Positions 7 through 39,647 of a DNA stretch of 39,647 bases are shown piece by piece. The DNA comes from an uncultured Clostridia bacterium (GTDB lineage: Bacteria; Bacillota; Clostridia; Lutisporales; Lutisporaceae), in the NCBI GenBank assembly GCA_937930535.1, contig CALGKJ010000156.1, positions 1 to 39,647 on the forward strand, written 5' to 3'. The notes under the pieces were generated by a model that did not search any database, was not told the origin of the DNA, and saw nothing but the letters and a program-made list of their open reading frames with translations. Numbering within the stretch: the stretch's first letter is position 1; each line of letters begins with the position of its first letter. A program made the translations under genes and the position numbers.

Positions 7-1634
7 GTACAGCAAATTGAATAAAAATGGATATGTGTTCCAGATAAATAGTAAAACATAGAAATTAGAATATGTATATGGGATTGAACATTGAAAATTT
101 GCTAAAACAAAGCATTTAGGTATAATTTACCAATGTAAAAAGGCAAAGAAATCCTAAGGTGCGAAAGAATATGGAGTATTTTACCTGTAGCTTATACAGC
201 TAAATTTTGATACTCTAAATTCCTGAGGGTTTCAGCTATGGCTTTTGCATGTTGTAATATGCAAACTAGTGCAGTCCTTACAAAGAAGTTTTTGGTCCCT
301 CTAAATGAAGGAGATTTTAAATCGTTGTTGAGAACAATATCACCAATAACAGATTCAATTCGAGCTCTCCTTGAATAGATGTCTTTCCAGAGCTGTGAAC
401 CTCTGGGGACTTGGGTAAACCATCGAATATCTTCTTCTATGTGAGTATAGACTGTTTTGCCATAGTTGGAACTACAACAACGATTATCACATCTTAGCTT
501 CTTAGCCAATTTCTTTGATGCTTTAATCGGGCATCTCCATTTATACCTTCTTGTTTTTTTATCAATCCCCCAATAATAATATGCATATCCAGCATTACAT
601 CGAGGCAATCCATATTCATTTACTGCCGTAGGCGTATTTGAACTTCTAGGATTAATTGCAATGATAGGTTTACCGCCAAGCAACTTGATCCACCAATAGA
701 TATACCATGCATCATAGCCAGAGTCCAAGATAACATAGTTAATATCAATTTTCATATTATGATATAAATACATCAGTAATGGAGAAAACATCTTGGAATC
801 ATGGGTATCAGCTCCAGTAACAAAAAAAGATAAGGGCAAACACTTTGATGGATTATTTACCATAGGAGTCGCAGCAAGATGCAGACCATAGCCAAGTAAG
901 AATTCATCCAAGTTATGGTCATAACCCTTAGTGGCTTCTGAATCTGAAGACATCGAGCATTTAAAAGGTTTAATGCCATATTTAGAACATCTGCAATATT
1001 TCTCAGGAATATACTTTTGTTTTGAAAAAGACTTGACCTTACAGCCATCAAAAATGACTTTATCATGAGGATCGATAATACCAAGTTCTATAGACTTATT
1101 AACGAATATGAGTTCAAATATTTTTTTCAAAAGTGTTCCTTGAAGCAATGTATCATTAATATTAAAGTCATTGCCGAACAGCATGGATGTAAACCATGAA
1201 AAGTAAGCTTTTGATGGTGTTTTGTCTGGTGAAAAACCTGAAAGATAAGCATAGCGTGGAGTTTCTCTAAGTTCCTTAACCCATTTATTAATAGATGTAA
1301 AACCAACATGATACATGACCATCAATGATCTTAATGCATCTTGTGGTCGGTAGTCAGCAGTTCGCCCACGAGTACTGCCTGAGTAAAAATGTGAACATAA
1401 ATCATAGACGTGGGAAAGATCAATTTTAGAGAAAACTTTAACAATACTATCAGTGTTTTTAACATACTGATAAAGATTTAATGTGTAAGCTAAATGGCTT
1501 TGATTTGGTAACAACAACTTAGCTCATCTCCTTTCTAAACCACTATTTTAGCAGGTTTTAAGGCGTTGAGGTGAAGTTGCTTGTTTCCAGTTTAAATAAA
1601 TCAAGGAAAATCAATGGGTTCAGCTTTGCTGAAC
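7..1634 (-). mobile_element. Probable insertion sequence carrying one transposase
   Basis: The transposase gene is flanked by near-matching terminal sequences. GTACAGCAAA reads inward from position 7, and the reverse complement of 1625-1634 reads GTTCAGCAAA, 9 of 10 identical. A gapped similarity continues a few bases further inward. The implied size, about 1.6 kb, suits a single-gene DDE insertion sequence. The right end overlaps a perfect hairpin at 1618-1634 (7-bp arms, 3-nt loop). No target-site duplication can be confirmed because only six bases precede the left end. The ends are an inference; the presence of a transposase is not in doubt. Confidence 0.35.
192..1517 (-). CDS. DDE-type transposase, apparently full length
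   Basis: This 441-residue protein is recognised as a DDE transposase of the broad IS4/IS5/IS1182 kind. Candidate catalytic residues are Asp157 (VIFDGCK), Asp265 (VILDSGYD) and Glu388 (RARIESVIGD), in the usual order and spacing. A Cys-rich stretch (about 175-188 and 329-348) sits around the catalytic core. The N-terminal part (about 30-110) has the usual DNA-binding look, with the PxDKTPS motif near residue 97. The start is TTG at 1517, preceded by AAAGGAG about ten bases upstream on the minus strand. No frameshift or internal stop is seen, so the element may be active. It lies next to a restriction-modification system, a common accessory-region pairing. The exact IS family is not assigned. 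Confidence 0.85.
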   Translation of the reverse strand: MLLPNQSHLAYTLNLYQYVKNTDSIVKVFSKIDLSHVYDLCSHFYSGSTRGRTADYRPQDALRSLMVMYHVGFTSINKWVKELRETPRYAYLSGFSPDKTPSKAYFSWFTSMLFGNDFNINDTLLQGTLLKKIFELIFVNKSIELGIIDPHDKVIFDGCKVKSFSKQKYIPEKYCRCSKYGIKPFKCSMSSDSEATKGYDHNLDEFLLGYGLHLAATPMVNNPSKCLPLSFFVTGADTHDSKMFSPLLMYLYHNMKIDINYVILDSGYDAWYIYWWIKLLGGKPIIAINPRSSNTPTAVNEYGLPRCNAGYAYYYWGIDKKTRRYKWRCPIKASKKLAKKLRCDNRCCSSNYGKTVYTHIEEDIRWFTQVPRGSQLWKDIYSRRARIESVIGDIVLNNDLKSPSFRGTKNFFVRTALVCILQHAKAIAETLRNLEYQNLAV

Positions 1635-7684: not shown

Positions 7685-7713
7685 TTGACAACATAAACCC
7701 CATATGATAAAAT
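7685..7713 (+). promoter_or_regulatory. Sigma-A promoter for the leuS leader transcript
   Basis: TTGACA at 7685-7690 is followed by a 17-base spacer and TAAAAT at 7708-7713. The -35 is perfect and the -10 has one change. Transcription should begin near 7720, so the RNA would contain the family A repeat and then the Leu T-box before leuS. Confidence 0.75.
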
Positions 7714-7729
7714 TATTCGCAATTGAACA

Positions 7730-7829
7730 TATAGAGAATAAACAACAAACATGTTAATCGTTAGTTTATTCTCACAAATAAATTAGAAAGTCTTAGCAAA
7801 ATGTATATGGAGCTTTTGAGTTTCTTATT
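7730..7829 (+). repeat. Structured intergenic repeat family A, copy 1 (leuS leader)
   Basis: This is a 100-base copy of a repeat also seen at 20.03-20.16 kb and 39.47 kb. GAGAATAAAC (7734-7743) pairs with GTTTATTCTC (7764-7773) around a 20-base loop. The arms differ from those of the other copies at several positions, yet pairing is retained. The conserved tail follows (CACAAATA, TTAG, CTTAGC, GAGCTTTTGAGTTTCTTA), ending in TATAA. It lies between a promoter and the T-box, so it should be transcribed. Strand assignment is by orientation of the conserved tail only. Confidence 0.7.
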
Positions 7830-7844
7830 TATAATAAAACAGCT

Positions 7845-8118
7845 AAATGCAAGGAATGGGAGTAGTAAAAAGCCTTGAGATTTTTAGAGAGCTGCAACAA
7901 TGGTGCAATGCAGCATTTTCAAACTTTTGAACTCACCCGGGAGCAGTTGCCTGAATAGTTTAAGGCTAATCGGATTCCACCGTTACAGGGATAGATGCTT
8001 ATTGTATCACCTCAAAATGATACAACAGCCATCAAATAAGAGGACTTGATGCAAGTCAAAAAGAGTGGTACCGCGGAATATCTCCGTCTCTATTATATAG
8101 AGGCGGAGTTTTTTATTT
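7845..8118 (+). promoter_or_regulatory. Leucine T-box riboswitch (tRNA-Leu sensing leader)
   Basis: T-box leaders read the charging state of a tRNA and choose between a terminator and an antiterminator. The specifier region shows AGTA (7861-7864) opposite GAACTCA (7929-7935). The helix GGG/CCC lies below it and AAAAG/CTTTT above, placing CTC (leucine) at 7932-7934. Stem I continues with GAGAGC and a GGTG-like distal part. The invariant T-box core GAGTGGTACCGCGG is at 8063-8076 and is followed directly by the terminator hairpin. The downstream gene is leuS, so specifier and gene agree. Confidence 0.93.
8082..8114 (+). terminator. T-box controlled intrinsic terminator upstream of leuS
   Basis: CTCCG-T-CTCTA (8082-8092) pairs with TAGAG-G-CGGAG (8098-8108) and is followed by a run of six T. 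It competes with the antiterminator formed by the T-box core just upstream. Confidence 0.9.
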
Positions 8119-14100: not shown

Positions 14101-14188
14101 TATAGGGTTTTTAGCCTAAAACTTAGACTATACCAAGCTAAAAACCTAAAAAGGAAGCAATAACTAGCACATATTAAGGGGTGTAGAA
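14101..14188 (+). repeat. Structured intergenic repeat family B, copy 1 (upstream of manA)
   Basis: GGTTTTTAGC (14106-14115) and GCTAAAAACC (14137-14146) form a perfect 10-bp hairpin with a 21-base loop. The loop is nearly the same as in the copy at 30.48 kb. The downstream part (GGAAGCAATAACTAGC, then GGGGTGTAGAA) matches the copy at 24.5 kb and runs up to the manA start codon, so the repeat supplies the manA ribosome binding region. Confidence 0.65.
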
Positions 14189-20025: not shown

Positions 20026-20164
20026 GAAATAAAATGAGCTTTAGAGTTGGTTACTTATAAAGATAAATAACTTCAAAATAAAATGCTATTCAAGTTATTT
20101 ATCACATATATGTTAGCAAGTCTTAGCGAAATAAATTGAGCTTTAGAGTTGGTTACTTATAAGA
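20026..20164 (+). repeat. Structured intergenic repeat family A, copy 2 (with partial second unit)
   Basis: A full unit spans about 20056-20157. GATAAATAACTT (20062-20073) pairs with AAGTTATTTATC (20092-20103) around an 18-base loop. The conserved tail follows (GTTAGCAAGTCTTAGCGAAA, then GAGCTTTAGAGTTGGTTA). The final part of the unit is also present just upstream: about 35 bases from 20026 recur from 20128 with one mismatch, an offset of exactly 102. This looks like a remnant of a tandem array. Confidence 0.75.
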
Positions 20165-20177
20165 TATAGGGTATAAT
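20149..20177 (+). promoter_or_regulatory. Possible promoter for the NusG-II / Gx / polyprenyl synthase operon
   Basis: TTGGTT (20149-20154), 17 bases, then TATAAT (20172-20177). The -10 is perfect and the -35 matches four of six. The -35 lies inside the conserved tail of repeat A, so the repeat may donate part of the promoter. Confidence 0.45.
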
Positions 20178-30478: not shown

Positions 30479-30527
30479 TTAAGGTTTTAGCTTAAAACTT
30501 AGATTATACCAAGCTAAAAACCTAGAA
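30479..30527 (+). repeat. Structured intergenic repeat family B, copy 3 (buk leader)
   Basis: AGGTTTTAGC (30482-30491) pairs with GCTAAAAACCT (30513-30523) with one bulged A. The 21-base loop differs from copy 1 at only two positions. The downstream GCAATAAC part seen in the other copies is absent. The element begins about ten bases after the predicted sigma-54 start point. Confidence 0.62.
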
Positions 30528-37370: not shown

Positions 37371-37384
37371 GTATATATGAAAAT

Positions 37385-37637
37385 TCAAGGAACCGGAAAA
37401 GTATTATCCTTCACTAGCTTTTAGAGAGTCAGGGTTAGGTGGAAGCCTGATAGTTATATGGATAAGAAAAGAGCCGGGGAGAAGCTGATCAAATGTCAAG
37501 TACTGCTTATTTGACTAAGTAAATCAGCCGTCAGCCTGCGATAAGGGCTTTGAGTGAATCGATGTCAAGGTTTATACATCGGTTAATTAGAGTGGTACCG
37601 CGGAACTCCGTCTCTTTTTGAGATTGGAGTTTTTTTA
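37385..37637 (+). promoter_or_regulatory. Arginine T-box riboswitch
   Basis: The leader has the T-box core TGGTACCGCGG (37593-37603), followed by a terminator. Stem I shows an AAAAGTA side opposite AGAAAAGAG, bounded by CCGG/CCGG below and TTATCC/GGATAA above. The distal GGTGGAAGCCTG-like part is also visible. This places AGA (arginine) at about 37470-37472 in the specifier position. It controls argS directly downstream. The specifier is inferred from pairing, not computed. Confidence 0.9.
37604..37637 (+). terminator. T-box controlled terminator upstream of argS
   Basis: AACTCC plus TCTC pairs with GAGA plus GGAGTT, with small internal mismatches and a following T run. It competes with the antiterminator that includes the T-box core. 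Confidence 0.88.
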
Positions 37638-39466: not shown

Positions 39467-39647
39467 TATAAAGAGAAACAACTACAAAATTAAGTTTAAC
39501 CAGTTGTTTCTCACAAATAGATTAGCAACCCTTAACGAAAAGTATTTTGAGTTTTAGAGTTGGTTATCTATAAAGAGAAACAACATCAAAATTAAATATA
39601 TCCAGTTGTTTCTCACAAATAGATTAGCAACTCTTAACGAAAAGTAT
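39467..39647 (+). repeat. Structured intergenic repeat family A, tandem copies 3 and 4 (run off the window)
   Basis: Unit one is 39467-39568. Unit two starts at 39569, giving a period of exactly 102 bases, and is cut by the window edge after 79 bases. In unit one GAGAAACAACT (39473-39483) pairs with AGTTGTTTCTC (39502-39512) around an 18-base loop; unit two repeats the stem. The two units differ only at scattered positions, mostly in the loop. More units may follow outside the window. Confidence 0.8.

Follow-up and report, generated by a model that had tools for sequence, protein, structure and literature searches.

The described systems that come closest to the repeat reported here are small dispersed elements of bacterial genomes. 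RUP, the repeat unit of pneumococcus, is 107 bp long and present in 108 intergenic copies with short inverted ends and a TA target, and it is thought to be moved by IS630-Spn1 (PMC2229807). Correia/NEMIS elements of Neisseria occur in a form of ~107 bp with TA ends, 24 bp inverted repeats and foldable, transcribed copies, while CIR (CerM-associated intergenic repeats) of Caulobacter and Brucella are built from two long inverted repeats that form two linker-joined arms, with TA ends and the motif GANTC; ERIC/IRU combines short inverted ends and TA termini with a stem-loop transcript (PMC2229807).

The element that we describe here, from an uncultured member of the Clostridia, is compared with these systems by description. 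It is like RUP in its size of ~100 bp, its intergenic copies, its short inverted ends and its TA target; RUP, however, has a candidate parent in IS630 and a single end-to-end stem-loop, whereas our element has two hairpins and a linker, and no parent was found for it in the searches given below. The bcr1 repeat of the Bacillus cereus group, a high-copy mobile repeat with a folded transcript, has a target site unlike that of our element, and the likeness lies in both being abundant mobile repeats of Gram-positive bacteria. Correia ends start with TATAG. TA ends are common to Correia/NEMIS and the element, but the inverted repeats are 24 bp in the former and about 16 in the latter. CIR has the same architecture of two arms and a linker, and likewise TA ends, but carries GANTC and is without terminal inverted repeats, the reverse of what is found here. 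ERIC/IRU, from enterobacteria, forms a single long stem and resembles the element in its inverted ends and TA termini. Judged by these descriptions, the element appears to act like RUP, Correia and ERIC, and to be a new family of the same general kind, namely that of miniature inverted-repeat transposable elements (MITEs).

Results

Anatomy of the element and its copies in the window

The window, that is, the whole stretch of DNA analysed, is the entire contig G000:C156 (39,647 nucleotides) from a genome of 4.69 Mb in 252 contigs. The element spans ~100 bp between two TA dinucleotides and comprises two hairpins, H1 and H2, on either side of an ACAAA linker, with the consensus TA-TAGAGAAACAACTTCAAAATTAAATTTTTCCAGTTGTTTCTC-ACAAA-GAGATTAGCAACTCTTAACGAAAAGTATTTTGAGTTTTAGAGTTGGTTATCTA-TA, in which GANTC is absent. 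H1 is formed by GAGAAACAACT/AGTTGTTTCTC, and H2 is an imperfect palindrome 3' of the linker. The termini, which are TATAGAGAAACAACTTC-type ends, form short inverted repeats (TATAGAGAAACAACT... / ...AGTTGGTTATCTATA) that are identical at 13 of 16 positions (TATAGAGAAACAACTT vs TATAGATAACCAACTC), and each of these ends is also part of its own hairpin. The consensus has no coding frame beyond read-through (<35 codons) and no transposase gene.

An earlier note on this DNA had reported copies at 7730, 20056 and 39467 with a hairpin in which differences between the arms are compensated. Direct reading bears this out for hairpins of 10-11 bp: the H1 5' arms GAGAATAAAC (7734-7743), GATAAATAAC (20062-20071) and GAGAAACAAC (39473-39482) are exact reverse complements of the 3' arms GTTTATTCTC (7764-7773), GTTATTTATC (20094-20103) and GTTGTTTCTC (39503-39512), the copies differ at arm positions 3, 6 and 7 as claimed, and the leuS copy does show the C-G to A-T exchange in its second helix. 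Folded as RNA, each copy beats its shuffles (z -3.8 to -4.4), and folded as DNA, two of the three reach z -5.0 to -5.6 against shuffles. The copies, a fragment next to the second, a truncated tandem unit and the neighbouring features are collected in Table 1. Comparison with Rfam returned no family for the element; at E up to 1, the window matched only two T-boxes. Besides the leuS leader, which the inserted element precedes, the second of these T-box leaders lies at 37379-37618.

Table 1. Positions of the element copies and associated features in the window
Feature	Position	Strand	Details
Copy 1	7730-7833	+	TA 7730-7731, element 7732-7831, TA 7832-7833; between leuS promoter and T-box leader
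H1 hairpin of copy 1	7734-7773	+	Arms 7734-7743 and 7764-7773; from sequence and fold
Probable leuS promoter, TTGACA-17-TAAAAT	7685-7713	+	Conserved in sister species; promoter assignment inferred from sequence comparison
leuS T-box leader	7843-8094	+	Directly 3' of copy 1; Rfam RF00230, 126.7 bits
Copy 2	20058-20161	+	TA 20058-20059, element 20060-20159, TA 20160-20161; arms 20062-20072 and 20093-20103
3' fragment of another unit	~20034-20057	+	Directly upstream of, and abutting, copy 2
Copy 3	39469-39572	+	TA 39469-39470, element 39471-39570, TA 39571-39572; H1 arms 39473-39482 and 39503-39512
Copy 4	39573-39647	+	Tandem second unit (fourth in window), TA in common with copy 3; cut short by contig end
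Sister family B, partial copy	14101-14176	-	Two-hairpin TA-to-TA design as in the element; extent approximate
Sister family B, fragment	30485-30527	-	TA-bounded

Several variants accompany the main form. Subfamily A', with 11 copies in the alignment, has a different second hairpin. In several solo forms of ~50 bp the 5' and 3' ends are fused without the intervening sequence, a shape expected of transposon derivatives with an internal deletion. At L085:1387-1454 and other loci the second hairpin has been cut back from the tip, which is what deletion mediated by a hairpin would produce. Sister family B (TATAGGGAAGCAACC...GCTAAAAACCCTATA) shares the element's design and TA ends, though its inverted repeat barely extends past TATAGGG; it accounts for 45 matches, 26 of them full, in 1.43 Mb, and none were found in 0.6 Mb of the sister species. 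A strict scan for TATA palindromes proved too narrow.

Copy number, dispersal and host range

BLAST gave 62 matches to the repeat in the genome and a covariance-model search at least 150, numbers far beyond chance. In 1.43 Mb of fetched sequence, a profile search yielded 222 matches, of which 156 were full, 17 were solo first hairpins, 21 were second-hairpin forms and 28 were others; some copies may be counted twice in this number where a few small loci overlap, and de-duplication by flank leaves 132 distinct full units. Because this sample was picked around known copies, the genome total can only be estimated, at several hundred copies. Loci carry a single unit, one and a half units or two, and of the 74 loci in an 827 kb sample, 72 are not inside a predicted gene. 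Targeting of promoter regions was considered and rejected, the counts in divergent, tandem and convergent regions matching intergenic length, as was a portable promoter, with no TATAAT peak at the right distance downstream of 114 copies. Contig ends of C156, C132 and C196 start or stop within tandem units; the assembly seems to break at the repeats, and array lengths are possibly underestimated.

Outside this genome the element is rare. Of the 22 genomes of the family, the sister species (G001) is the only one with a clear copy, a single one, and G005 has one weak match. A scan for the exact pattern in 84,980 species, in which the element's own genome may be left out, matched the sister MAG CALJSV01 alone, and viral contigs gave no match to the element. 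In essence the distribution covers a single species, with one further copy in the sister.

TA boundaries and an empty site at leuS

In 111 isolated units the left boundary is T in 109 and A in 109 (98%), and the right boundary is T in 103 and A in 105 (about 94%); conservation stops at these positions and composition returns to background outside the TA. An exact empty site is present at leuS in the sister species (G001:C6, L175 around 2150), where the sequence reads GAACA-TA-ATATGTTTAATAAGTGCAAGG and the window has GAACA-TA-[100 bp]-TA-ATAAAACAGCTAAATGCAAGG. Both species have the promoter TTGACA-17-TAAAAT and the T-box at the same spacing, with 21 nt after the TA in each, and only the window has the element. 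This pair of filled and empty sites indicates that TA is duplicated on insertion. Sixteen syntenic loci were found in the sister, and in all 13 alignments inspected the element is absent, although most of the 13 junctions are too diverged for exact reading and leuS is the only clean empty site. Conversely, the only copy detected in the sister lies upstream of cysK, between an rrf2-like gene and cysK (names read from sequence), and the syntenic locus of G000 has the same genes without the element; 0.6 Mb of the sister held no other copy. No convincing paralogous empty sites were seen within the genome.

At 20149-20177, the end of copy 2 places TTGGTT 17 nt before a TATAAT that the sister species shares; where the copy supplies TTGGTT, the sister has TTGGTA. 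Insertion of copy 2 may have replaced a -35 box.

Changes in the hairpin arms

The first hairpin is unchanged in 85 of 131 copies. Among the 46 changed copies, 30 are uncompensated, 11 keep wobble pairing only, 3 are compensated by full Watson-Crick pairs and 2 are mixed. Two of these last five sit in the window, which explains the clear pattern of compensation in the earlier note. In the second hairpin, the commonest form contains T-T, G-G and G-A mismatches; the right arm matches the left in 14 copies, and at L029 two separate bases of the left arm have changed so that it matches the right. Template switching within a quasi-palindrome can produce coordinated changes of this kind (PMC8794818). 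Changes of two bases in one arm only were found at L072, whose left arm is that of the 7.7 kb copy, and at L091, whose right arm is that of L138.

Discussion

Our findings describe a repeat that inserts at TA, is dispersed through the genome, has inverted ends and differs in presence or absence between sister species. The TA-bounded ends, the dispersal and the empty site argue for a mobile DNA element, and its features (short, without a transposase gene, in many dispersed copies, with terminal inverted repeats and TA duplication) are those of a MITE. We therefore consider it very probable that the repeat is a non-autonomous MITE of ~100 bp with short terminal inverted repeats that inserts at TA, duplicates it and carries no gene. 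Transposases of the IS630/Tc1-mariner type are the standard example of TA-targeting, and we infer that a DDE transposase of this type would have moved the element in trans by cut-and-paste. Tandem copies with one common TA could have arisen by insertion beside an earlier copy.

The mobilising transposase may now be lost or unrecognised, and a missing autonomous parent is common for MITEs. Genome-wide searches for an autonomous parent gave two loci with DDE_3 (one broken), neither with matching ends, and two with DDE_Tnp_1, with no parent among them, and 1.43 Mb contained no matching end pairs around a recognisable transposase. Long elements between such ends were sought as well; 34 loose pairs were found, none around a transposase (first 90 residues, by eye). 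The IS630 copies at C57 and C86, which are without matching ends, were rejected as parents. At C57, the IS630-type (DDE_3) match falls in an open frame of 170 codons (G000:C57:19176-19604), with undefined ends. The window itself contains a DUF772 and DDE_Tnp_1 transposase (192-1517, minus strand), present as a single copy in the sample; it too was rejected as a parent, no matching ends being seen.

The earlier note had interpreted the compensated arms as a sign that a folded RNA or a cruciform is under selection, to be contradicted by a genome-wide alignment in which arm changes are uncompensated. A structured dispersed family with some compensated arms does exist; the interpretation as selection is not supported, since such an alignment is largely what the genome provides, with 30 of the 46 changed H1 copies uncompensated and 3 fully compensated. 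A structured RNA under selection, either a small RNA or a cis-regulatory leader or UTR element whose footprint is the covariation, could draw on the stable folds, on the position of the leuS copy between promoter and T-box, in a leader that is probably transcribed, and on a covariation score of 0.079 vs 0.046 in shuffles of the 131 units, with 17 pairs changed on both sides vs 7.0 expected and the whole structure also above slid controls. This excess, however, comes largely from one inherited subfamily of 11 copies, and the main second hairpin retains its three mismatches. Changes to G-U and to A-C are not significantly different (20 vs 13 in H1 and 27 vs 16 in H2; 8 vs 7 and 8 vs 11 as distinct types) and show no clear strand preference in H1, and they therefore lend no support to selection acting on a folded RNA. 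Conservation is higher in the arms than in the H1 loop (0.97 vs 0.86), as for a DNA recognition site, orientation bias in tandem regions is weak (25:14), and the element is missing at syntenic loci of the sister. On this balance we regard a selected RNA as very improbable.

The palindromic nature of the repeat also brings to mind two explanations at the level of DNA, both of which we hold to be more improbable still. Two hairpins per element, together with tandem and solo forms, would suit a palindrome, REP/BIME-like or derived from IS200/IS605, that a Y1 (RAYT) transposase moves as single-stranded DNA, but PF01797 (Y1 transposase) has 0 matches in the genome and the GTAG/CTAC tag is absent. 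It is well established that IS200/IS605 insertion makes no target duplication, and the TA duplication at leuS contradicts such an origin. Palindromic units and high DNA-fold stability would equally suit a cruciform-forming site, bound by a host protein and spread by recombination and not transposition, but the precise TA-to-TA insertion in an otherwise unchanged flank and the base-exact boundaries need a transposition-like step.

The arm pattern fits a recently spread DNA with conserved ends and not a long-conserved RNA. The counts argue against general compensation; they do not by themselves prove a mechanism of mutation. Template switching has been reported to generate compensatory changes in stems (PMC8794818), and the rare compensated arm changes would best be explained by DNA template switching between arms (quasi-palindrome correction) combined with subfamily inheritance, and not by selection on an RNA. 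Individual copies may still affect expression, for example that in the leuS leader. A wider proposal, in which A, A', B and the solo hairpins form one MITE superfamily whose two hairpin modules are exchanged and homogenized by template switching, with an unrecognised mobiliser that reads hairpins and not long inverted repeats, and some copies (the leuS leader) recruited as RNA control elements, strikes us as unlikely.

Our findings highlight an undescribed MITE family that is very abundant in uncultured Clostridia and for which a T-box-controlled leader provides a clean empty site. They also carry a warning: when only a few stem changes in a repeat are compensated, a functional RNA should not be inferred from them, because template switching during replication and the inheritance of subfamilies yield the same picture, and only a genome-wide count separates RNA selection from these. 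In the same genome, a CRISPR-like array with the repeat GTTCTACCGAAACATAGGATGTATTTAAAT lies at about 39.1-40.0 kb of G000:C10 (L106:19000-20000).
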